From IMG/VR virus record IMGVR_UViG_3300028608_000006, positions 62,001 through 126,000 of that record: a stretch of 64,000 bases of DNA. The stretch is one strand, 5' to 3'. The notes beneath the pieces were generated by a model. That model worked only from the letters and a program-made list of their open reading frames with translations, had not been told where the DNA came from and searched no databases. The DNA comes from a virus. Shown here piece after piece: positions 50,388 to 61,291 of the stretch. The first letter of the stretch is position 1. The number at the start of each line of letters is the position of its first letter. A program made the position numbers and the translations under genes.

Positions 50388-51581
50388 TTACTTGCTTTGT
50401 TTCAGCTCGGGGCATTGGTCGCCGAGAGCGTAGGCGATGTTGCCGACAGCAGAGCTCGTGATGTTGAGGAAGGTAAGGATGCCGGATGTGGCGTTCAGAC
50501 TGCAACTGAGATCAAACAGATCGTCTTCCAGTTCGTCGTGCTTCTTCTCATCCTGGTTCTTGGTAAGCTCACTCCTCAGCTTGTCCATCTTGCCTTTCAC
50601 ATCAGTGTGGATCTCCTTGATCTTCTTCTTGCTGCCCTCGGCCTGATCAAGGGCGCGCTTACTGTCTGCGAGCCAGGACTTACACGCACTGATACTTTTA
50701 AAGTGCTCAGGACGCGAACCGTTAGCAAAGCCTTCAAGGGCCTCGATAACGGCACCAGTTCTGGTGGACATCTCTTTGTAGATGTTTCTAGCGCGTTCAC
50801 TGAACGACTTATCGTCAGCACTTTCTTCGAAAGACTCTTTGCGGGTCTTGATGGTGGCGAGGGCCTTTTCGATGCTTTCGCAGTTTCTTTTGATGTTGTT
50901 GGCGTTGATCACGGAGAATTCGAACACCTCCTTAACCAACTCAGCAACCTGAGGCACAGCTTTTGCAACTTCGGCCGGGGTTGGCTTACTGGCTTCAGCA
51001 GGCTTGGAATCAGGCGCCTTGGAGTTGTTGTCAGACCCGCTCTTGGACGGCTCGGACTTGGCAGGTTCAGCCTTGGTGATCTTGAGATCTTCCTTGACAT
51101 CCGCAACCTTCTTTTCCAGCTTGGTCTTTTCAGGACCGGCCGGGAGCTTTTCAACCTTGGCTTCAACAGCCTTCACGGTAGCCACAACGTTATCCGGTGT
51201 AACCTTTGGAGCGTCCATCGCCTTTACCGCGACTTCAGCCTCGGCAACAGTCGCCTTGATCTTTGCGTCCTTTTCGGCAGCCGGTTTACCGAAGAGGAAT
51301 TCCCAGAGAGATTTGAACATCTTCTGAATGTATTCCCACATCTTCGCGATGCCTTTACCGATGGCGCTAAACAGGCCACCTTCTTCGTTACCGGTAATCT
51401 CGTCGAGACCAGATTCCAGGCCAGCAGCATACATGACACCGTGCAAGTAATGCTGCGCTGCGGAGAGGTTCATACCTTCACTACCGCTAACGGTATCCAT
51501 GAAGCCTGCCATTACTTTCTCGACATGTTCCGGAGCCGGAATGTCGTCGTAATCATCGGCGAAGTCAACAATGTGATTCAT
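50388..51581 (-). CDS. Probable internal head (inner body) protein, paralogue B (397 aa)
   Basis: Paralogue of the 351-aa product at 3771-4826: matching N-terminus (PAPEHVEKVMAGFMD), EGMNLSAAQ, GNEEGG at 64-69, WEYIQKMFKSLWEF, PEKTKLEKKV and a helical C-terminus. It has an extra Ser/Pro/Ala linker (about 175-205). The acidic first 60 residues followed by a conserved GNE could be a propeptide removed by the prohead protease, as in phiKZ inner-body proteins. ATG 51581 follows GGGGGAT. It lies alone between two terminators. Confidence 0.62.
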   Translation of the reverse strand: MNHIVDFADDYDDIPAPEHVEKVMAGFMDTVSGSEGMNLSAAQHYLHGVMYAAGLESGLDEITGNEEGGLFSAIGKGIAKMWEYIQKMFKSLWEFLFGKPAAEKDAKIKATVAEAEVAVKAMDAPKVTPDNVVATVKAVEAKVEKLPAGPEKTKLEKKVADVKEDLKITKAEPAKSEPSKSGSDNNSKAPDSKPAEASKPTPAEVAKAVPQVAELVKEVFEFSVINANNIKRNCESIEKALATIKTRKESFEESADDKSFSERARNIYKEMSTRTGAVIEALEGFANGSRPEHFKSISACKSWLADSKRALDQAEGSKKKIKEIHTDVKGKMDKLRSELTKNQDEKKHDELEDDLFDLSCSLNATSGILTFLNITSSAVGNIAYALGDQCPELKQSK

Positions 51582-51695: not shown

Positions 51696-52214
51696 TTATT
51701 GATGGAAAGGAATTACGGTTGCGGTACACCCTGTATCTCCGTCGCGGCTAACTTCCAGAAAATCGTATCGACCCGGTATAGACTGGGGACCGAACAAGTT
51801 ACTGTAGCCCATTGTGTATGCCACTTGAAAACTCACGTTGTACCGGTGCCGGTAGTCCATTACAAATGCCATGGATACCAATGCTTCGTCCTCCAACGAA
51901 ACGGCGGGCGGTACTGTGTCGAAATCAATGTGACGTTGCGGTTCAGCGGTAAGATGAGCGTGTAAGGTAGTGCCGATGCTCATGGCCATTTGATGATTCA
52001 GGCCATACTTCATCATAAACCAGCGCACCCAACGAGGATGCACTCCTCCACCCCGAGTAAACAAGCTAGGTTCTGTAGGGTCAGGTTTATACTCCGACTT
52101 ATCTGTGATTTGAAGCATCGCAGCTATCGGATGTATATTCATGAACAATGGCATTGCCAAAGAACGCATTGCCCCTACGAGCCCAATTTTTGCGGAAGTA
52201 GCTTTATTAATCAC
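51696..52214 (-). CDS. Trp-anchored repeat protein (172 aa)
   Basis: The start is GTG 52214 behind GAGGTAAAG. Two units follow: PRWVRWFMMKYGLNHQMAMS, after TEPSLF, and MAFVMDYRHRYNVSFQVAYT. The order lead-in, unit, linker, unit matches the 245-aa product at 46084. No known family; helical binding protein suspected. Confidence 0.72.
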   Translation of the reverse strand: MINKATSAKIGLVGAMRSLAMPLFMNIHPIAAMLQITDKSEYKPDPTEPSLFTRGGGVHPRWVRWFMMKYGLNHQMAMSIGTTLHAHLTAEPQRHIDFDTVPPAVSLEDEALVSMAFVMDYRHRYNVSFQVAYTMGYSNLFGPQSIPGRYDFLEVSRDGDTGCTATVIPFHQ

Positions 52215-52264
52215 AAGCTTTACCTCACATTTATTTTATCGTTGAATTGGTTTTCAGAAACGTC

Positions 52265-52708
52265 CTAGTGTTGTAGCAGTAGCTTAGCCATATCGCGGCG
52301 TTTTTCCTTAAGACGCTCGATGTCGACATGGTCTTGCTTTACTTTCAACGGAGATCTGTCCAACGACTGAATCAAGGCCTCTTTTTGTCTGATCAAGTCA
52401 TCTAACGAATACACTCTCACGCCATTCACCACTTGAATGGCGACTCCCATGGGTAACTTTTGTAAGCTTACCTTCTCGTTATAATCCAGAAACGTACCGT
52501 GCTCCGTTACACGCTCCTTATCTGAACCCAGCAAGTAACGTTGGAACTCGTAAGTATCCGACGGTATCGACAAGTCCAGGTCATTGGTGCTGTCCCTTAA
52601 ACCCAACATCAATAAAGCGCCACCCGATGATACAACCACTTCGGACGGGCGTAATCCAATCTCGCTACAGAAATTGAAGTACTCCCGTTCAAACTCTATC
52701 AGGTCCAT
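52265..52708 (-). CDS. Putative nucleotidyltransferase (147 aa)
   Basis: The pattern VSSGGALLMLGLRDSTNDLDL (GG29-30, D43-x-D45) matches the GS/GG...R.T.DLDL core of MNT/AbiEii-type nucleotidyltransferases. It is followed by VYSLDDLIRQKEALI and a basic D(I)ERLK end, which also fits that family. It would transfer an NMP to a protein, tRNA or small molecule. ATG 52708 follows GAGG; a TTG five codons earlier is weaker. No toxin or antitoxin partner is evident; the 61-aa basic neighbour is a candidate at most. Confidence 0.65.
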   Translation of the reverse strand: MDLIEFEREYFNFCSEIGLRPSEVVVSSGGALLMLGLRDSTNDLDLSIPSDTYEFQRYLLGSDKERVTEHGTFLDYNEKVSLQKLPMGVAIQVVNGVRVYSLDDLIRQKEALIQSLDRSPLKVKQDHVDIERLKEKRRDMAKLLLQH

Positions 52709-52719
52709 GTGGGAAATCC

Positions 52720-52905
52720 TCAATTGAAGATGTTTACCACTGTACTTCGTAGGGCCGTGACCATTCGCTTTAACCAGGAGGATCTCCGAGGTAATCGGTT
52801 GCGAGAACCAACTATGTATTGTTGGTAGTCGGCGCTCCCCGAGGAATGGCCACGGTAGTAACTACGAGGTAACGGAGCAACAATGCGGTTACGTGCATTC
52901 AGCAT
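52720..52905 (-). CDS. Small basic protein (61 aa)
   Basis: ATG 52905 follows AGGACT. The product is Arg-rich (SRNRLPRRSSWLKRMVTALR) with a Ser/Tyr/Gly middle and no acidic patch, which suits nucleic-acid binding. It lies 11 bases upstream of the nucleotidyltransferase gene. No family recognised. Confidence 0.65.
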   Translation of the reverse strand: MLNARNRIVAPLPRSYYRGHSSGSADYQQYIVGSRNRLPRRSSWLKRMVTALRSTVVNIFN

Positions 52906-52961
52906 AACTAATAGTCCTGTTGAGTTAAATAATAAATTGAGACGAGTAAAACAAAGAAAGG

Positions 52962-52989
52962 CTAACCCTGCCCGCAAGGGCAGGGTTAG
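52962..52989 (-). terminator. Strong hairpin terminator
   Basis: CTAACCCTGCCC and GGGCAGGGTTAG form a perfect 12-bp stem with loop GCAA; the minus strand continues CTTTCTTTGTTTTAC. Confidence 0.85.
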
Positions 52990-52997
52990 TTTATTGC

Positions 52998-54245
52998 TTA
53001 GTGCTTGAAGCCCAGCATTTGAGCCATGGATGCATTCGGCGTTACGGCCGGCACAGACATGGTTGGAGCAGGCAGAGCAGCTGGGAGGCCGTCTGCGTTC
53101 GAGTTCAGCTTGCCAGCGATTGCGGTGTGAGCCATACGACCCAGGCCGGAACCCAGTGCACCAGCAGCCAGACCCAGAGTACCAGCGGCGGTGTAACGAC
53201 CGAACTCGCTACCGATGTGCTCGTCGAGCATGTCAGCGGCGAAGAAGGAACCGGCGATCGCTGCAACTGCACCGATACCCGAACCGATGCTCAGGCTACC
53301 GCTGTGACCGGTTTCCAGAGCTGCGCCCAGCAGAGCACCGCCAGCTGCAATCCAGCCAGAACGGATGCCTTCGTCACGCTCACCACGCAGGGAGAAACGC
53401 GAACGTGCTTCGACCGACTGACGCGCCGGTTTGAAACCTTCAGCGAACTTGATGAAGGCGGTCAGGGTTTCAGGGGTCTTGCTAACGAACGCGTAGAACT
53501 GTTCGTCGTTGCTCAGCTTGTCATTGGCAACAGCCTGAGCCTGAGGTTGCAGTTCCAGGTTGGCAGTCAGGAAAGCGTTGTACAGCTCGTTACGCTTGGC
53601 TTCGGTGTCGTAACCGATGGCCACTACTGCGGCCAGGTGCAGTTGGAACGGAGTTGGTTGGGCGGCAGTGTTCATGGTGTCTTCCTTAGCGGCAGTAGTG
53701 GTGGTGGAGTTGGTGGCGGTAGTGGTAGCGGTGTCTTGCTTGATTTCTTGACCCAGTGGCATTGCTTGTTGCTCCAGCGAAGTTGGTTGAGTGTCGGCGG
53801 CTTGCTCGAGTTCTACAGACTCGTTGACAGCCGGTGCAGCTTGTTCGGTTACTTGGGCGGCGGCAGGATCCACCCAGTTCTCTTTGACATTGTTGACATA
53901 GGTCTCGGCTGTTTGTTCAGCCAGTTCCAGTACACCAGTACCATGCAATTCATCAACCGGGATCAAGGTACCTTGGATCACGGGTGCATCAGAAGCAGGA
54001 TCGTTAGCCAGAGCCGGATCGGCTTTGCGAACCTGGTTCATGCTGAAGTCTGTTTCCAGCGCTTCGTTAACACGTTTCAGGAAAGCCTGACGTTGTTGCT
54101 TCTCCAGAAGCTTCTCGTCAAACATCACTGCACGGAGTACAGCTTGCAGCCGGCGTGGATTACCGCCGTTTGTTCTGATGGTCTTCAGAGCCTCGATAGT
54201 GGCTTCGAGGTTTGCTTCGTAGTCAGGAACGGAAATCGAATTCAT
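52998..54245 (-). CDS. Hypothetical protein with Thr-rich linker and Gly-zipper C-terminus (415 aa)
   Basis: Three parts are visible: a helical N-terminal third, a Gln/Thr/Ala low-complexity linker (TATTTATNSTTTTAAKEDT, about 171-189), and a second helical domain followed by Gly/Ala-rich hydrophobic stretches (about 300-375, AAGGALLGAALETG, GLAAGALGSGLG) that look like membrane or Gly-zipper segments. ATG 54245 follows AAGGAG. Promoter copy 8 drives it and a terminator follows, so it is a single-gene unit. Function unknown. Confidence 0.75.
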   Translation of the reverse strand: MNSISVPDYEANLEATIEALKTIRTNGGNPRRLQAVLRAVMFDEKLLEKQQRQAFLKRVNEALETDFSMNQVRKADPALANDPASDAPVIQGTLIPVDELHGTGVLELAEQTAETYVNNVKENWVDPAAAQVTEQAAPAVNESVELEQAADTQPTSLEQQAMPLGQEIKQDTATTTATNSTTTTAAKEDTMNTAAQPTPFQLHLAAVVAIGYDTEAKRNELYNAFLTANLELQPQAQAVANDKLSNDEQFYAFVSKTPETLTAFIKFAEGFKPARQSVEARSRFSLRGERDEGIRSGWIAAGGALLGAALETGHSGSLSIGSGIGAVAAIAGSFFAADMLDEHIGSEFGRYTAAGTLGLAAGALGSGLGRMAHTAIAGKLNSNADGLPAALPAPTMSVPAVTPNASMAQMLGFKH

Positions 54246-54321
54246 TTGGTGTAACTCCTTGTCGGGAAAGTATTAGATTCTTTTAAGCAACACAAAGATA
54301 TTTGTATTACTTACTGTGATA

Positions 54322-54353
54322 GTTATATAGACCTGAAACAAACTGTAACTTAA
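54322..54353 (-). promoter_or_regulatory. Early-type promoter, TATATAAC variant (copy 8)
   Basis: TTAAGT, 18 bases, TATATAAC on the minus strand within TTTCAGGTCTATATAAC, 76 bases before ATG 54245. It differs from the core at one position. Confidence 0.7.
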
Positions 54354-54373
54354 AAATAAAAGCAAGCGGACAT

Positions 54374-54410
54374 ATACCCCCTTACCCCACATCAGTGGGG
54401 TAAGGGGTAT
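54374..54410 (-). terminator. Strong hairpin terminator
   Basis: ATACCCC-TTACCCCAC and GTGGGGTAAGGGGTAT pair over 16 bp with one bulged C and loop ATCA, four bases after the Acb1-like gene. Confidence 0.82.
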
Positions 54411-54413
54411 TAG

Positions 54414-54845
54414 TTACTTACCGAGGCTGTACGCTTCGTTGGTAAAGGTCAACTTACGACCTGCCCAATCAGACAACACTTGATTGCACGCGAGGATGTC
54501 GTATTGGTTAAAGTCGTAGGTCAAACTCATGTGCGGGATGTACCCATTATAAGGAGTTTGATAACCACAGGCTTTTAACCGCAAGTGTTCCTCTTGCAGA
54601 TCCTTACTGGTCAAGCGAAAGATCAAACCGTCACCCAATACTTCGATAGCCACAACATGCGCTTCGAAGATACGGGTAGGGTCCAGCTTGGCCAGAGGTT
54701 CTTTGACATCACGCTCATCATAGATCAACGTGCTGTGGAAGTCGTGTTTCGGGGATGGAGCGATCCCAGCGCCACTCAGGAGAGTAATCAGCTCTGCTTC
54801 GAAGTCACTGGTCAGATCAACCGAGATGTAGCTGTAATCGGCCAT
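54414..54845 (-). CDS. acb1: 2H phosphoesterase, candidate anti-CBASS nuclease Acb1 (143 aa)
   Basis: The two HxT/S motifs of the 2H superfamily are present: H37-S-T39 in HDFHSTLIYDERD and H105-M-S107 in GYIPHMSLTYDF, 68 residues apart. Flanking residues (P.P.H..HST.IY, then a helix with EEH..LKA.G and YIPH.SL.YD) agree closely with my memory of T4 Acb1 (gene 57B), whose HxT pairs have nearly the same spacing. Acb1 cleaves cyclic oligonucleotide signals and blocks CBASS immunity. ATG 54845 follows GAGG. The alternative is another 2H enzyme such as an RNA-processing CPDase. Confidence 0.72.
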   Translation of the reverse strand: MADYSYISVDLTSDFEAELITLLSGAGIAPSPKHDFHSTLIYDERDVKEPLAKLDPTRIFEAHVVAIEVLGDGLIFRLTSKDLQEEHLRLKACGYQTPYNGYIPHMSLTYDFNQYDILACNQVLSDWAGRKLTFTNEAYSLGK

Positions 54846-54852
54846 GGCTGCC

Positions 54853-55572
54853 TCAGGAAGGATTAGGGGTGTCCAATACAATCCCTTGGCGGTTGTCGAT
54901 GATGTCCAAACAACGGAACACAGCAAAGACGCCTTGGTGTTCGGTCGACAGACGGTTCGCTTCTTCGAATGCCAGCGCCTTGGTCTGGTGACGGAACGGT
55001 ACATTGTGGAAATTCACCGCACCAGTCGGACCTACCTTGGAGATCACGTAGCGTCCCAAGGTCTTCGCGTACTTCGGCTTATAGCTGTTGGTGCCGGCGA
55101 TGGTCAGTTTGTTGTGGTACATCTGGAAACCTTCCCAGCGCGCATTCACCCACTGCATGACGTACTTATCCCGCGAGTCACGGTCCAGCACCTTTGGATC
55201 AAACGAGCCTTCTTCAAACAGCAGGTTCTCAAACTCCTCCCGCAGCGAACATTCCTTACGATCGGGACGTGCGGCTACAGGAGGCATCCCCTGACCCTGT
55301 TGCAACTCACGGGTGGTGCGGCGGGTCAGGGGAATGGCCACGACGTAAGGATCCGTGTCGTTAGCCGGGGTGAAGACCATTACCTGAGCATCTTCTTTTA
55401 CGTTTGGACCAATGCGTTCGTGCAGGACTTCTACCGCTTCTAGCAGGGCGGCTTCAACGTTAGGTTGCCCCAACTCTACGGTGCGCTTGTTTACCCATGC
55501 TTGATCAATTGCGCGCAGCGAGAGTGGTTCGGTGGACAAGAAATCCACCGGAGTCAGTTCTTGAACAGTCAT
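54853..55572 (-). CDS. Hypothetical protein (239 aa) with one Trp-anchored unit
   Basis: ATG 55572 follows AAGGAAAG. Near residue 24 is a divergent repeat (QAWVNKRTVELGQPNVEAAL); then strands (AQVMVFTPANDTDPYVVAIP), a Pro/Gln linker and a C-terminal mixed domain. It lies seven bases upstream of the Acb1-like gene and is probably co-transcribed with it. No known family. Confidence 0.72.
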   Translation of the reverse strand: MTVQELTPVDFLSTEPLSLRAIDQAWVNKRTVELGQPNVEAALLEAVEVLHERIGPNVKEDAQVMVFTPANDTDPYVVAIPLTRRTTRELQQGQGMPPVAARPDRKECSLREEFENLLFEEGSFDPKVLDRDSRDKYVMQWVNARWEGFQMYHNKLTIAGTNSYKPKYAKTLGRYVISKVGPTGAVNFHNVPFRHQTKALAFEEANRLSTEHQGVFAVFRCLDIIDNRQGIVLDTPNPS

Positions 55573-55592
55573 TGCTTATTCTTTCCTTGAGT

Positions 55593-56060
55593 TTATTCGT
55601 GGCTACCAGGCACATCGAAGTTTGGCAGTCCTGGAAGATCACCGTCCAGAATCTCGGAAACCCAGCGCCCGCCAGCCATTTCGATCGCGCGCCAATCAGC
55701 AGTACCGCCGATTTGTTTGGCGTATTCGTTCAGCAGACGAGGATGGTAGTTGTGGTCGCCCATGAGGCAATGGCCGAGACGATCAGCGATTCTGGAAAGG
55801 TCATCGTGATCAGCACCTTCTACCCGACCATCCGGGTGCAGGACTTGGACCCCGTACCACTTGCAATAGTTTTCCATCGTCACAATGGGTTTGCCGAAAG
55901 TAGACGGCGACTGGCACAGCAGTGGAATACCACGTTGGCTTACGTAGACCTTTGTCTTCGGTTGCCCCGGAACCGAGACCCACTGGATGATGTGTGGGTC
56001 ACTCTCTTTATTTCGCCCCGGAACTTCTGTGGGTGCTTCTGGTTGAATTTCGTTCGCCAT
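55593..56060 (-). CDS. Hypothetical protein (155 aa)
   Basis: ATG 56060 follows GGGGAG. The N-terminus is Pro/Glu-rich; then strands (KTKVYVSQRGIPLLCQ), HPDGRVEGADHDDL and a His-containing helix. No motif recognised. Its first 121 bases overlap the 3' end of the membrane protein gene upstream in another frame. Confidence 0.72.
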   Translation of the reverse strand: MANEIQPEAPTEVPGRNKESDPHIIQWVSVPGQPKTKVYVSQRGIPLLCQSPSTFGKPIVTMENYCKWYGVQVLHPDGRVEGADHDDLSRIADRLGHCLMGDHNYHPRLLNEYAKQIGGTADWRAIEMAGGRWVSEILDGDLPGLPNFDVPGSHE

Positions 56061-56338
56061 CTTTGTTTCTCCCCTGAAGAAGGTTGTTTAGGTCCAAATA
56101 TCTTGTCGTGGAATTTCATCGAAGCCACCATACCGAACGCAGCCCCACAACCCGCACTTATCCCAATGGTCCAATCTCCCTTAACTACTAGGGTAATGGC
56201 GGCTACGTCAAATGCCGCCATTAAGAACGATGTGAAAAACACAGAGCGGGTGTGGTTACCAATCACGTTCTTGTACTGGAACCCTTTTAGAAATACCGCG
56301 CAGAACGAAGAGGCAAGGCTGAGTCCGTATAGCAGCAT
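55940..56338 (-). CDS. Small membrane protein (132 aa) with overlapping 3' end
   Basis: Residues 1-80 hold three hydrophobic segments and FLKGFQYKNVIGNHTRSVFF, FLMAAFDVAAITLVVKGDW and AGCGAAFGMVASMKFHDKIF, a layout typical of small conserved phage membrane proteins. From about residue 93 the sequence becomes basic and Ser/Arg-rich (SSSGSRFRGNRRQRST), exactly where it overlaps the next gene, so that tail may be a by-product. The ATG overlaps the RNase H stop (TGATG). Confidence 0.65.
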   Translation of the reverse strand: MLLYGLSLASSFCAVFLKGFQYKNVIGNHTRSVFFTSFLMAAFDVAAITLVVKGDWTIGISAGCGAAFGMVASMKFHDKIFGPKQPSSGEKQRWRTKFNQKHPQKFRGEIKRVTHTSSSGSRFRGNRRQRST

Positions 56339-56823
56339 CAGCTTAGTCCACTGTATTCGGTGTCATGGGTGGTAGGAGCAGCTGCCGCGTCTTTGGCAAT
56401 CTGGTCGGCCAGTTCGTTATCAGGGATACCGGAGTGAGCCTTGACCTTGAAGAACTTAACCTTGTTCGTCCTGAGCAACTCGTTCAGGATAATCCACAGG
56501 TCTTTGTTCTTGACCATATTGCCATCACGTGTTAGCCAATCGTTGCGGTACCAATTGCGGACCCACTTAGTAGATCCGTCAATCGTGTACTGTGAGTCGG
56601 TATAGATGTTGATCTTTGCATTCGGGCCGAATTCTTCCAATGTGGCGATCACGGCCATGATCTCCATACGGTTGTTGGTGGTTAAGAAATAACCCTTGGC
56701 GAGTGTGACCATCTGGTCTCCGCATCGCACCACAGCACCGTAACCGCCCGGGCCGGGATTGCCGAGTGCACTCCCGTCCGTATAGGCTTCGTAAACAATT
56801 GGAGCCTTTTTAGCTTTTGCCAT
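56338..56823 (-). CDS. rnhA: Ribonuclease HI (161 aa)
   Basis: All catalytic residues of bacterial RNase HI are present at a constant offset of six from E. coli: D16 (YTDGSALGNPGPGGYG), E54 (NRMEIMAVI), D76 (YTDSQ), H130 (KAHSG) and D140. It degrades RNA in RNA-DNA hybrids, removing primers during phage replication. The basic handle region (WVRNWYRNDW) is conserved. It sits in the same minus cluster as the DNA ligase, which would seal the resulting nicks. The start has a weak site (GTAGGTA) after the upstream stop. Confidence 0.95.
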   Translation of the reverse strand: MAKAKKAPIVYEAYTDGSALGNPGPGGYGAVVRCGDQMVTLAKGYFLTTNNRMEIMAVIATLEEFGPNAKINIYTDSQYTIDGSTKWVRNWYRNDWLTRDGNMVKNKDLWIILNELLRTNKVKFFKVKAHSGIPDNELADQIAKDAAAAPTTHDTEYSGLS

Positions 56824-56826
56824 TAC

Positions 56827-57765
56827 CTACACCGTGTTTTGTTCCTGTTTAGCTTCCATCATTTCAATCACCTTGACCCTCGACTTCACAGAGTCAATGA
56901 GATGTTCGACAGCCGCTTCGATCATGGGAACTTCCCAGAACTTGGTTTGTTTGAGCAGACGTTCAGAAAGCTCTGGATCCGCTACGTCAAGCTCCCAATG
57001 AGAGCCACTAATGGCGACCATATAAGAACCCTTTGCAGCACGATAAAAGTTGAACCCGCCGTACTCGTTAAAGTCAATGCGGAAGTAGCCGAATGGGTTG
57101 TCGAAATTCAACGCCCCCGCGGTGTCGATTTCAACCCCACCCAGTGTGCAGCGGTTGATGCGGACAGGTCCTTCTGCTTCGATTTTACCGCCCTTCAGTT
57201 TAGTGCTGGACAGAGTGACGTCATCTTCGCCGCACAACCAAACCCCTTTAAGCTCGCTGGCAATGACTGTGACCAAACCCTTTGCTTTAATGACGGTGCC
57301 TTGGAGGGTTGAGGACTCGGTAACCATGATCCCCGACGGCGTTTCCGAATTCTTCACGGTGGAGTTCTGGATCAGCGCGTCCTTTACCCCGTACGTTGCG
57401 TGCGCGTCTTCGAACTCGCATTCGATCGTGCAGTTATCAAGGGTGCAGTTGTTGGTGGCGACATACTCCAAGACAACATACCCATGGAACACGTCATTGT
57501 TGCTGAAGGCGTTCTCGAGGGTGACAACCGCGAACGCTTCCAGAGGGGTCTTGGTGAACCCCGCCAAGTTCTGGTACAACGACGGATCGAAGTCCACCCG
57601 GGAGAAAGGATCCAAGTAGAAATGGATCTTGTCCTTGTCGTTGAGTTTGACCTCATAAAGACACCACGCACCGGGAGTGTCCTCCGTGATCATGGAAATC
57701 CCTGCTTTATCAGGAACTCGTTTTGTGCCGTTGATAAACAGACCTGTTTCTTCTACTTCACTCAT
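56827..57765 (-). CDS. Beta-helix paralogue 1 (312 aa)
   Basis: One of four consecutive paralogues. Shared plan: N-terminal ETGLF.(N/D)G.K, a strand region (IHFYLDPFSRVDFD), then a run of short polar turns (NNCTLDNCTIECEF, IQNSTVKNSE, ESSTLQGTVI) typical of a parallel beta-helix, a YF.(I/L)(D/E) strand, and a C-terminal DPEL...DS(V/I).SR.KVI helix. ATG 57765 follows GAGGTGA. Not a recognised enzyme; a virion or carbohydrate-related surface role is possible. Confidence 0.7.
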   Translation of the reverse strand: MSEVEETGLFINGTKRVPDKAGISMITEDTPGAWCLYEVKLNDKDKIHFYLDPFSRVDFDPSLYQNLAGFTKTPLEAFAVVTLENAFSNNDVFHGYVVLEYVATNNCTLDNCTIECEFEDAHATYGVKDALIQNSTVKNSETPSGIMVTESSTLQGTVIKAKGLVTVIASELKGVWLCGEDDVTLSSTKLKGGKIEAEGPVRINRCTLGGVEIDTAGALNFDNPFGYFRIDFNEYGGFNFYRAAKGSYMVAISGSHWELDVADPELSERLLKQTKFWEVPMIEAAVEHLIDSVKSRVKVIEMMEAKQEQNTV

Positions 57766-57788
57766 ATTGACTCACCTCGGTGTGTTGA

Positions 57789-58796
57789 TTAGCAGACAGC
57801 GCTTAGACGCAGGTACTCTTGGTGACGATACCGCTCTATCGCCGTCATTACCTTGGTCCTAGACTCAATGCTGTCGTAGATGTATTGCAGGCAGCTTTCT
57901 TCGCTACCCTGCCTACGGTCCCTGAGAACTTGTTGAAGCACGTCCTCAACATTGGGATTATCCACAAAGACAGAAAAACGATCACCCCGAATATCCGGAG
58001 CAATAGCCCACTTGCAACCACCGGTTTGGTAGACGTAGAACTTAACTTTCGGTAGCACCACTTCTAGGAAGTACATAGGTCCGGGTACATGGATGGATTC
58101 CCCAGTGATGCGAACCTTTGGCCAGTTAACACGCTGGATCGTTAACAACCCATGCATGTTAACATGGGTATTCCATGCGTAAACGTCCTCCAGCAGAATC
58201 TGTCCGTCTGTATTGAACTTGGAGAATTGCATATCACATTGATCAACCAGAACCGTGTTGTCAGTCCTAGAGATTACAGTGACATCCTGCAAGGTGCTCC
58301 CCATCACCACAGCATCTTTCGAGAATCGTCCGTCGATAACTTCTGACTCGAGCAGTTCTAGTCGGATGTAGATGTTAAACATCTTTTCATCTACATCCCT
58401 CAGAATAAGGATCGAGGCAGAAAGATGGGACTCTGCGATTATGACGTTAACGAGCGTGCATTCGCCCTCAAACGTACACCGCTGGCTAACGGTGTCTACA
58501 AAAACAGCCCGACAGTATTCGTTGTCGACTACATCCTTATCCAGATCTTTCTGGAGCGTCAGGAAACGTTCACTGTCGATTTCAACACAAGACTCAGGAC
58601 ACAAGTAGAATTCGAGATTGAACTTCCCCACAGGAATGCTGTAGTAGTCCAGAACAATATCTGGATCCACTACGCCCAATTCAAAGGCGGCGGGTTTCCC
58701 CGCGCCTACGGCAACCTGCTTCACGCCGTCGAGAAACAGCCCAGGGGGGCACTTCTCTTTAGCAGGTCTTAATCCAAGCTCTTCCAGCAAACTCAT
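57789..58796 (-). CDS. Beta-helix paralogue 2 (335 aa)
   Basis: It shares PGLFLDGVKQ, FNLEFYLCPES, the polar-turn run (QRCTFEGECTLVNVIIAESH in part) and the C-terminal DSIESRTKVM helix with its neighbours, and has an extra N-terminal LLEELGLRPAKEKCP. ATG 58796 follows AGGAG and overlaps the upstream stop (ATGA). Confidence 0.7.
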   Translation of the reverse strand: MSLLEELGLRPAKEKCPPGLFLDGVKQVAVGAGKPAAFELGVVDPDIVLDYYSIPVGKFNLEFYLCPESCVEIDSERFLTLQKDLDKDVVDNEYCRAVFVDTVSQRCTFEGECTLVNVIIAESHLSASILILRDVDEKMFNIYIRLELLESEVIDGRFSKDAVVMGSTLQDVTVISRTDNTVLVDQCDMQFSKFNTDGQILLEDVYAWNTHVNMHGLLTIQRVNWPKVRITGESIHVPGPMYFLEVVLPKVKFYVYQTGGCKWAIAPDIRGDRFSVFVDNPNVEDVLQQVLRDRRQGSEESCLQYIYDSIESRTKVMTAIERYRHQEYLRLSAVC

Positions 58797-59731
58797 ATTG
58801 GATCTCCTAAAGTTTTCTCAAACTCAGCCCACAACGCTTGAATGAGATTACGACGTGAACGGATCGAGTCCATCACGTACTTGACTGTATCGTCGGGTAG
58901 CAGCTGTTCGCAGTCCACCAAGAGTTCTTTCAGTTTCCCTCGGAACTCTGGATCGTCTACGTTCATATCGAAGCCACCGCCTTGACGGGTGATGGCAAAC
59001 GCCTCACTGCCGGTTTGGTAGCAGTACAACGTCAGGCTCGGGAAGTCGATGCTGAAGAAGTACAGACGATTCGGAATGTGGCAATCGTCAATCTTCATGT
59101 ACATCTCGTTCATACGGCTGTCACAGATGCGAACGAAGTTAATCGCGTGCACACTGGTCTCGTTGAACTTACAACCATTGAGGTACAACGTGCCTCTCGC
59201 CGAGAACGAAGAGTTCTTCAGCGTGGAGCCTTCAATCCACACGCCAGCAGCTTCTGTGATGACCGTGGAGTTGATTACCGATGAATTGAGGATCGTACTA
59301 CCGTCCGAGATCGTAGCGTTCTCCAAACGCGACCCAGAGACACTGAGGTTAACCAGCGGGTGCAATTCGGAGATCTTCAATGAGGATCTGGAGATGTCCG
59401 AGTTACTGACCTTGCAGTTATTGGTGACACTGTTGTACAGCGTGCAGTTTCCAGTGAATGCATCCCGGTAGCTGCTGCTGTTCCTCACAATCACCCAAGC
59501 GTGGTTATCATCGTCATTCTCTTCATCAATATCGAGGTCGAGATAGTGCGACGAATCAATCTTCACCACGGACATGTGATCAAGGAAGAAGTGAACAGTG
59601 AGGATCCCCACCACTACCCGGTACTGACTGAACTCGCCGTCGCCAGCGTCTTCGTCAATCGACGGATTAGTGTTAGTACGGACGGGGTCCAACTTGTGAC
59701 CATCCAAGAACAAACCGGTTTCATGCTTCAT
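58793..59731 (-). CDS. Beta-helix paralogue 3 (312 aa)
   Basis: It has the clearest beta-helix run of the four: Asn/Ser-rich repeats such as NCTLYNSVTNNCKVSNSD, SRLENATISDGSTILNSS, STLKNSSFSARGTLYLNGC. The frame elements ETGLFLDGHK, VHFFLDHMSVV and YVMDSIRSRRNLI match its paralogues. ATG 59731 follows AGGAG. Its stop overlaps the next start. Confidence 0.72.
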   Translation of the reverse strand: MKHETGLFLDGHKLDPVRTNTNPSIDEDAGDGEFSQYRVVVGILTVHFFLDHMSVVKIDSSHYLDLDIDEENDDDNHAWVIVRNSSSYRDAFTGNCTLYNSVTNNCKVSNSDISRSSLKISELHPLVNLSVSGSRLENATISDGSTILNSSVINSTVITEAAGVWIEGSTLKNSSFSARGTLYLNGCKFNETSVHAINFVRICDSRMNEMYMKIDDCHIPNRLYFFSIDFPSLTLYCYQTGSEAFAITRQGGGFDMNVDDPEFRGKLKELLVDCEQLLPDDTVKYVMDSIRSRRNLIQALWAEFEKTLGDPI

Positions 59732-59753
59732 CTTTTAGCTCCTAAGCAAAACA

Positions 59754-59783
59754 TAATCCACCGGAGTTTCCCCCGGTGGATTA
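59754..59783 (-). terminator. Strong hairpin terminator
   Basis: TAATCCACCGG and CCGGTGGATTA form a perfect 11-bp stem with an eight-base loop, eight bases after the 499-aa paralogue; TGTTTTG follows. Confidence 0.8.
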
Positions 59784-59791
59784 GCGTTCAG

Positions 59792-61291
59792 TTAGACTGC
59801 GTAGATGTCGTCCCAAGGCCTTGTGCGGTCACCAACTTCGCGGACAAGCTGTTTAGCTTCATCCAACAGGCGAACGACTTTCAAACGAGACGTGATCGAG
59901 TCAGTCAAGTAACTGGCAACGCTACGGGAAAGGGAAGTAGGTTGAGTGTAGAAACCTTCCGGGTCCAAAGACAACTGGCAGGCTACAACTTTTTCGATTT
60001 CTTCCTTCGGTGCATCCAGGCGTAGACGCTCCATGTTGTGCAGGTTCACGCCGAGATCGAAGTCACGACGGGTGGCACGAACCATGTACATTTTGTGCTG
60101 CGGGGTATCAATCTCCAGGTAGCAGAACTTGTTGGGGATGTAGATCGAGTTGGCCTTGATGTGAGCGCCAGTAAAGCGGGAGTACTTCAACAACAGTTCG
60201 CCTTCGCTGTTCACGCCGCACTTGGTCAGGTGGTTGCCCTTCAGTGTAACTCGAGTACCACGGATGTGGCAGTCGAAGATCTGGCAAGTGCCGACCTGAA
60301 CGTAGCCAGCGCTGCTGATCTGGCTGTCGTGAACCTGCGAATCACGGTACTCGCCCTTACTGATCGAGGAGTTGAAAACCGAGGTACGCTTGAACAGACA
60401 TTCCCGTACATTGAAGCGTTCTTTCACTTCTTTGCTAACCGGTGTCGGCTCGTCGCTCATGTGACCGAAACCACGCGGGTAGTTCGGATCATGTTCCTTG
60501 GTGCACGCCAACACGGCGTTGTTCAACAGGTTGTAAGCCGACTCGGTATTGATGAGGGTCGACTCACCCAGCACGATGTCGTCATTACTGGACGAGTTGA
60601 TCAGCACCAGCACGCCACGGTTGGGAACGTTCTGACGACGGTGGTAGTCCAAACGAGCATCACCGCCACCCACACTGACAGTGGAGTTGCTGTCCAGCAG
60701 GTAATACGCTTCCACATCACCAGCACGCAAACGATACAGAGAGAACACCTTGTCCGTGTACAGCTGGGAGATCGGGTGCGGCAGGTAGAACGGAGTTTCC
60801 AGGTGCTGGCTGCGGATACGGTTGTAGTCGACTTTCAACCCGGTTTCAATCGGATCTTGCAACACGCCTTCGTACATGAAGGTACCCTGAGCCTGAACCC
60901 GCATGACCGCATCAGCTACGGCTTCGGAGATCAGGCTATCCGGATCACGACCAGCCGCTTTCAACACACGCTCGGCGTTCTTGATCTGACGATCAGTTGG
61001 TGCTTCTTCGACCACCACATGTTCGAACACAGGAGAGAAGCCCAGCCCCTTGGACGGCTTGTGGTAATCGACGATCGGTGGTTGAGGCTCATCGACAATC
61101 AGCGCGAGATTGCGCTTCTTCTTTTCAGCGACGATTTCTGGCAGGGTCACGTAGCTGGTATCGCCCGCTGCCTTCTTCTGAGCATCGAGATCTTTGACAA
61201 TCTCAACGGTTTCATTCACAAGTTCCCCGACAATACCCTCGGGAGACTGAGTATCTTCCTTGATCTTTACAACTTTGTCCGTCTTACTCAT
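59792..61291 (-). CDS. Beta-helix paralogue 4, extended (499 aa)
   Basis: Residues from about 140 follow the paralogue plan (ETGLKVD, VEAYYLLDSNSTVSV, the turn run RTSVFNSSISKGEYRDSQVH and beyond, YIPNKFCYLEIDTP, YLTDSITSRLKVVRLLDEA). The first 130 residues are an extra charged helical region (EIVAEKKKRNLALIVDEPQPP). ATG 61291 overlaps the ligase stop (ATGA) with GGAG upstream. Function unknown. Confidence 0.72.
   Translation of the reverse strand: MSKTDKVVKIKEDTQSPEGIVGELVNETVEIVKDLDAQKKAAGDTSYVTLPEIVAEKKKRNLALIVDEPQPPIVDYHKPSKGLGFSPVFEHVVVEEAPTDRQIKNAERVLKAAGRDPDSLISEAVADAVMRVQAQGTFMYEGVLQDPIETGLKVDYNRIRSQHLETPFYLPHPISQLYTDKVFSLYRLRAGDVEAYYLLDSNSTVSVGGGDARLDYHRRQNVPNRGVLVLINSSSNDDIVLGESTLINTESAYNLLNNAVLACTKEHDPNYPRGFGHMSDEPTPVSKEVKERFNVRECLFKRTSVFNSSISKGEYRDSQVHDSQISSAGYVQVGTCQIFDCHIRGTRVTLKGNHLTKCGVNSEGELLLKYSRFTGAHIKANSIYIPNKFCYLEIDTPQHKMYMVRATRRDFDLGVNLHNMERLRLDAPKEEIEKVVACQLSLDPEGFYTQPTSLSRSVASYLTDSITSRLKVVRLLDEAKQLVREVGDRTRPWDDIYAV

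Follow-up and report, generated by a model that had tools for sequence, protein, structure and literature searches.

The window analysed here, a 64,000-nucleotide stretch of DNA, spans bases 62001-126000 of a virus record of 231,788 bases. On its minus strand lies a gene encoding 143 residues (Table 1), in which a sequence-only reading had seen a candidate for the anti-CBASS nuclease Acb1. The open reading frame starts with an ATG that is preceded by a GAGG a few bases 5', ends with a stop codon at 54416-54414, and its translation matched the one given in that reading. The two HxT/S motifs described there were found as H37-S-T39 and H105-M-S107, at a spacing of exactly 68 residues. Related genes are present in other phages, with identities of 89% (L002, the closest), 63% and 48%. 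Comparison with L002 gave a dN of 0.097 and a dS of 0.79, indicating that the protein is under purifying selection. A megablast search of the acb1 region against phages returned no match.

Table 1. Features of the acb1-like gene and its surroundings (positions in the window)
Feature	Position	Strand	Evidence
acb1-like gene, 143 aa, 2H phosphodiesterase, Acb1 family	54414..54845	-	PF23474, phrog_755, BCSR5/FBB1 Acb1 fold match
Y6, equivalent of T4 base-stacking Y12	54828..54830	-	alignment; Acb1 role from PMC9117128
Catalytic motif 1, H37-S-T39 (T4 H44/T46)	54729..54737	-	alignments, all members keep it
Y99, equivalent of T4 base-stacking F107	54549..54551	-	alignment
Catalytic motif 2, H105-M-S107 (T4 H113/T115)	54525..54533	-	alignments; His in all, Ser for Thr in the branch
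C-terminus, E137-K143 and stop; no E141 equivalent, no lid (T4 145-152)	54414..54434	-	alignment, model
Strong conserved hairpin, probable operon-end terminator	54378..54407	-	z=-3.7; similar in L002, EL, L015
Upstream gene, 239 aa, ends 7 nt before acb1	54853..55572	-	relatives in L002, L015, L018, L020
RNase H1, constant upstream neighbour of acb1	56338..56823	-	PF00075, 140 bits; synteny
Downstream gene, 415 aa, own promoter-like upstream region	52998..54245	-	related to EL gp127

Organization of the locus and source phage

Given the short gap of 7 nt between the upstream gene and the acb1-like gene, the two are probably co-transcribed. In each of the ten relatives compared, a set ranging from EL-like contigs to the Vibrio phage pTD1, acb1 is preceded by an RNase H gene, and the genes in between vary. 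Because of this constant position and the purifying selection, acb1 looks like an old inherited core gene next to a spot of gene turnover. In the window, the interval between RNase H and acb1 contains a 132-aa reading frame (55940-56338, minus strand) that matches the holin PHROG 7045 (E=2e-11) and overlaps the next gene in a different frame. Upstream of RNase H, three consecutive related reading frames of 312, 335 and 312 aa (56827-59731, minus strand) form a tandem family that is also found in L002 and L032.

The sequence-only reading had assigned the gene a strong terminator of its own and a place near an early-type promoter region. The hairpin is real: it is conserved in L002 with compensating changes, and it has counterparts in EL and L015. 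In L015, however, an additional gene stands between acb1 and the hairpin, which thus probably marks the end of the operon rather than of acb1 itself; on the minus strand, the T-rich run begins about 20 nt beyond the stem. The promoter claim did not hold, since the promoter-like, AT-rich stretch (about 54256-54350) is situated beyond the 3' end of acb1. This stretch, 3' of the hairpin, is conserved, precedes the start of the next gene at 54245 and belongs to that gene. A sigma-70 scan of 52000-60000 returned no minus-strand promoter, which is a weak test, since transcription in such phages relies on RNA polymerases of their own.

We also considered an anti-defence island around acb1 and found it unsupported, as PADLOC returned only weak matches among the neighbours (AbiEii and LmuB). 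Since the synteny with RNase H is fixed and there are no known anti-defence neighbours, the genome context provides no independent support for the function of the gene. The AbiEii match (nucleotidyltransferase toxin, E=3e-4) concerns a 152-aa protein with a GG...D.D pattern (52265-52723, minus strand); it has a relative in EL gp120 (31%) and may be a nucleotidyltransferase-fold protein of these phages. The LmuB/JetC match, of coiled-coil type, concerns a 397-aa protein (50388-51581, minus strand) that is 83% identical in L002, and it probably reflects composition.

Just upstream of the gene for an RNA polymerase beta' subunit, the record carries one for a nuclear shell protein (phrog_4795, E=4.5e-139). 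The source phage is thus predicted to be an EL-like, nucleus-forming jumbo phage. The shell protein (chimallin) is divergent (L078:2236-4377; G000:C1:221235-223376): a direct search with 201phi2-1 gp105 found no match to it, and the Pfam chimallin model does not detect it. GenBank assigns the related Elvirus phage GXNNE2 to the Chimalliviridae. A family profile found acb1 in EL, RisingSun, OBP and five uncultivated EL-like contigs, and gave no match in phiKZ or 201phi2-1.

Family assignment and predicted fold

The protein scored 49.5 bits (E=4.7e-13) against PF23474 ("Anti-CBASS protein Acb1"), above the curated cut-off of 27, and the match was repeated in a Pfam scan of the whole record. It also belongs to phrog_755 (E=1.9e-23). 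Together with the relatives in other phages, these matches indicate that the reading frame is not a chance match. PHROGs labels phrog_755 "RNA ligase". We consider this label a misnomer, as it is also borne by T4 57B, the founding Acb1 and a proven cGAMP nuclease, which is placed in the same PHROG. Grouping with RNA ligase-type CPDases would have spoken against the sequence-only reading, and here the comparison favoured Acb1, PF13563 (2_5_RNA_ligase2) reaching 12.3 bits against its cut-off of 27. PF02834 (LigT) was not listed for this protein in the Pfam scan.

Aligned directly, the protein resembles its T4 counterpart only weakly (29% over 87 residues, 33 bits). Against the PDB, a profile of the wider family, including T4-like rows, found FBB1 Acb1 at E=2.9e-30, and a profile restricted to the EL clade found BCSR5 Acb1 (3e-6) and FBB1 Acb1 (5e-4), with no others below 0.5. 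The family is present in many phages, and plasmids gave a single weak match. A family profile also matched an Acb1-like 2H domain at residues 485-585 of the Pam3 portal protein (PDB 8hds, E=5e-8), an apparent fusion of an anti-CBASS-type domain with a cyanophage virion (portal) protein.

An AlphaFold model built with 24 alignment rows had a mean pLDDT of 90 and a pTM of 0.84. Its 2H fold is closest to solved Acb1 structures: the five top fold matches in the PDB were all Acb1 chains, BCSR5 first and then FBB1, followed by a plant cyclic nucleotide phosphodiesterase, the penguinpox cGAMP phosphodiesterase and LigT-type proteins. Among viral models, RisingSun gp120, which UniProt calls "Anti-CBASS protein Acb1", was best (TM 0.89). 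The Pfam match, the PHROG shared with T4 57B and the fold matches thus support the proposed Acb1 identity. Databases already document the Acb1 family, its function and its occurrence in jumbo phages.

Pocket residues and the jumbo-phage branch

We mapped the residues to T4 numbering through an alignment of 32 family members. H44, T46 and H113 are conserved in all 32, and T115 is a serine in our protein, so that the tetrad reads HST and HMS. A serine in place of the second threonine is acceptable, since HxT/S is permitted among 2H enzymes. The sequence-only reading had seen the motif layout of T4 Acb1 here, and the catalytic tetrad does align with it. Of the four base-stacking aromatics of T4 Acb1, Y12 and F107 have equivalents (Y6 and Y99), W74 is replaced by leucine and W147 has no counterpart. 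The E141 position is occupied by serine, and the chain terminates at the last strand, so that the lid (145-152), to which W147 belongs, is missing. In T4 Acb1 these contacts matter: E141 touches the adenine and accounts for the adenosine requirement, and the lid shuts over the ligand (PMC9117128). With a serine at position 141 and a chain that stops before the lid, the protein is a member of the Acb1 family outside the lidded T4-type subgroup. Catalysis should be the same as in T4-type Acb1, judging from the conserved motifs. Base and ring-size preference is not transferable from T4, as E141, W74 and the lid are missing.

The closest named proteins, EL gp126 (48% identical) and RisingSun gp120 (44%), share the lidless C-terminus and the same site downstream of DNA ligase and RNase H, and differ from the source phage in sequence and in the variable genes between RNase H and acb1. 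T4 57B and FBB1 Acb1 (PDB 7T26/7T27) belong to the same Pfam family and PHROG and have the same 2H fold. Our protein has in common with them the HxT, the second histidine and the Y12 and F107 equivalents, but it is only about 24% identical overall and, in addition to the serine for T115 and the pocket differences listed above, it carries an extra helix before the last strand. BCSR5 Acb1 from a Burkholderia phage (PDB 9Q2G/9Q2Y), for which an open and a closed lid have been described, was the best fold match in its closed form (TM 0.78 over the query) at 18% identity. In the sequence alignment, a similar helix follows its second motif, and the BCSR5-related BcepSauron sits on a long branch on the T4 side of the tree. 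Gp118 of Pectobacterium phage CBB (L080:1501-1947), with HxT/HxS motifs and about 26% identity to our protein, falls into the same lidless branch. A 2017 study listed it among the structural proteins of the virion on the basis of mass spectrometry (PMC5259590); by Pfam, it is an Acb1-family protein (58 bits).

The losses of W74, E141 and the lid tend to co-occur in the jumbo-phage relatives (EL, RisingSun, OBP, pTD1, Miami, EJP2, CBB and uncultivated contigs), with partial exceptions such as EJP2, phiKT1028 and PDCC-1, which have a glutamate at position 141. A family tree computed after removal of the lid, E141 and W74 columns separates a jumbo-phage branch from the T4 side with support of 97/93, long branches leaving some placements unsure, and the lid label requires two changes on this tree. 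A helix (114-123) and an invariant tryptophan (W127) are common to the EL-clade proteins; our guess is that these could stand in for the lid. In the literature searched, we found no discussion of the fact that the lid, E141 and W74 are jointly absent from the jumbo branch, and we know of no member of this lidless branch that has been assayed.

Proposed function in a nucleus-forming phage

We propose, with a probability of about 0.78, that the gene encodes an Acb1-family 2H phosphodiesterase that cleaves CBASS cyclic nucleotides in an EL-like, nucleus-forming phage. Family, fold and catalytic tetrad come directly from the computations; for the substrate and the anti-CBASS effect we extrapolate from T4 and FBB1 Acb1. 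H37/T39 and H105/S107 would perform a metal-independent acid-base cleavage of the 3'-5' bond in cyclic di- or trinucleotides made by the host CBASS cyclases, yielding linear products. With these signals linearised, the cytoplasmic CBASS effectors would stay untriggered, and the source phage would presumably be resistant to CBASS, as the sequence-only reading had suggested. The missing E141, W74 and W147 lid count against this proposal, and the base preference and ring-size range of the lidless branch may differ from those of the T4 type. A tentative and rather doubtful extension is that the jumbo branch as a whole (EL, OBP, pTD1, Miami, CBB and the source phage) represents a lidless Acb1 that degrades different or wider immune nucleotides: the open pocket, devoid of the adenine-reading glutamate and the lid tryptophan, might accept larger rings, cGG or others, and some of these enzymes might be delivered by the virion.

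One rival reading is an enzyme of Acb1 fold whose target has shifted to a different immune signal, such as larger cyclic oligoadenylates, cGG or ADP-ribose-derived molecules, and which counters a non-CBASS or an additional defence. The loss of E141, lid and W74 across the jumbo branch and the well-supported split from the T4 side would fit such a shift, as would the first fold match past the Acb1s, the plant enzyme acting on ADP-ribose 1'',2''-cyclic phosphate. However, the tetrad, the Y12/F107 equivalents and the overall fold are those of Acb1, with the BCSR5 and FBB1 proteins as nearest structures, and we judge this shift unlikely. The database label points instead to RNA repair, by a 2',3'-cyclic phosphodiesterase or a 2'-5' RNA ligase-type enzyme. 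In agreement with this, RNase H is a constant neighbour, LigT and the plant CPDase appear lower in the fold list, and in the relative L015 the 2_5_RNA_ligase2 profile reaches 24 bits, which is still sub-threshold. Yet in each of the 17 family members that were scanned, the Acb1 profile outscored any for RNA ligases or LigT, and the T4 nuclease carries the same label and PHROG. Moreover, no PF09414 RNA ligase was found in the record or in EL in a search whose controls worked; the corresponding search for PF09511 (T4 Rnl1) was uninformative, as the controls themselves gave no match. We therefore regard an RNA-processing role as very improbable.

Even less probable is a mainly structural role in the virion, as the annotation of the RisingSun, XbC2 and CBB relatives would have it. 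Mass spectrometry of CBB virions did recover 7 peptides of gp118, covering 60% of it (PMC5259590), and particles of Vibrio phage 6E351A contained Acb1 (PMC12028318). In our protein, however, the catalytic site is intact and conserved, RisingSun gp120 is missing from the list of proteins that mass spectrometry detected in the RisingSun lysate (PMC6034870), and presence in the particle fits delivery of an enzyme and need not mean a structural role.

Returning to the anti-CBASS enzyme that we favour, the nuclear shell of these phages shields their DNA against DNA-cutting defences. It should offer no cover against CBASS, because the effectors of that system can act lethally outside the shell, in the cytoplasm; a phage with a nucleus would therefore profit from an Acb1. 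Indeed, CBASS III-C in P. aeruginosa blocks a phiKZ-like phage by more than 10^5-fold (PMC10889362). Lacking the lid and E141, the jumbo branch represents a natural experiment on the residues that determine the specificity of Acb1. Which nucleus-forming phages would survive CBASS can be predicted directly from the distribution of acb1, an apparent core gene of the EL, RisingSun, OBP and Vibrio lineages that gave no match in phiKZ and 201phi2-1.
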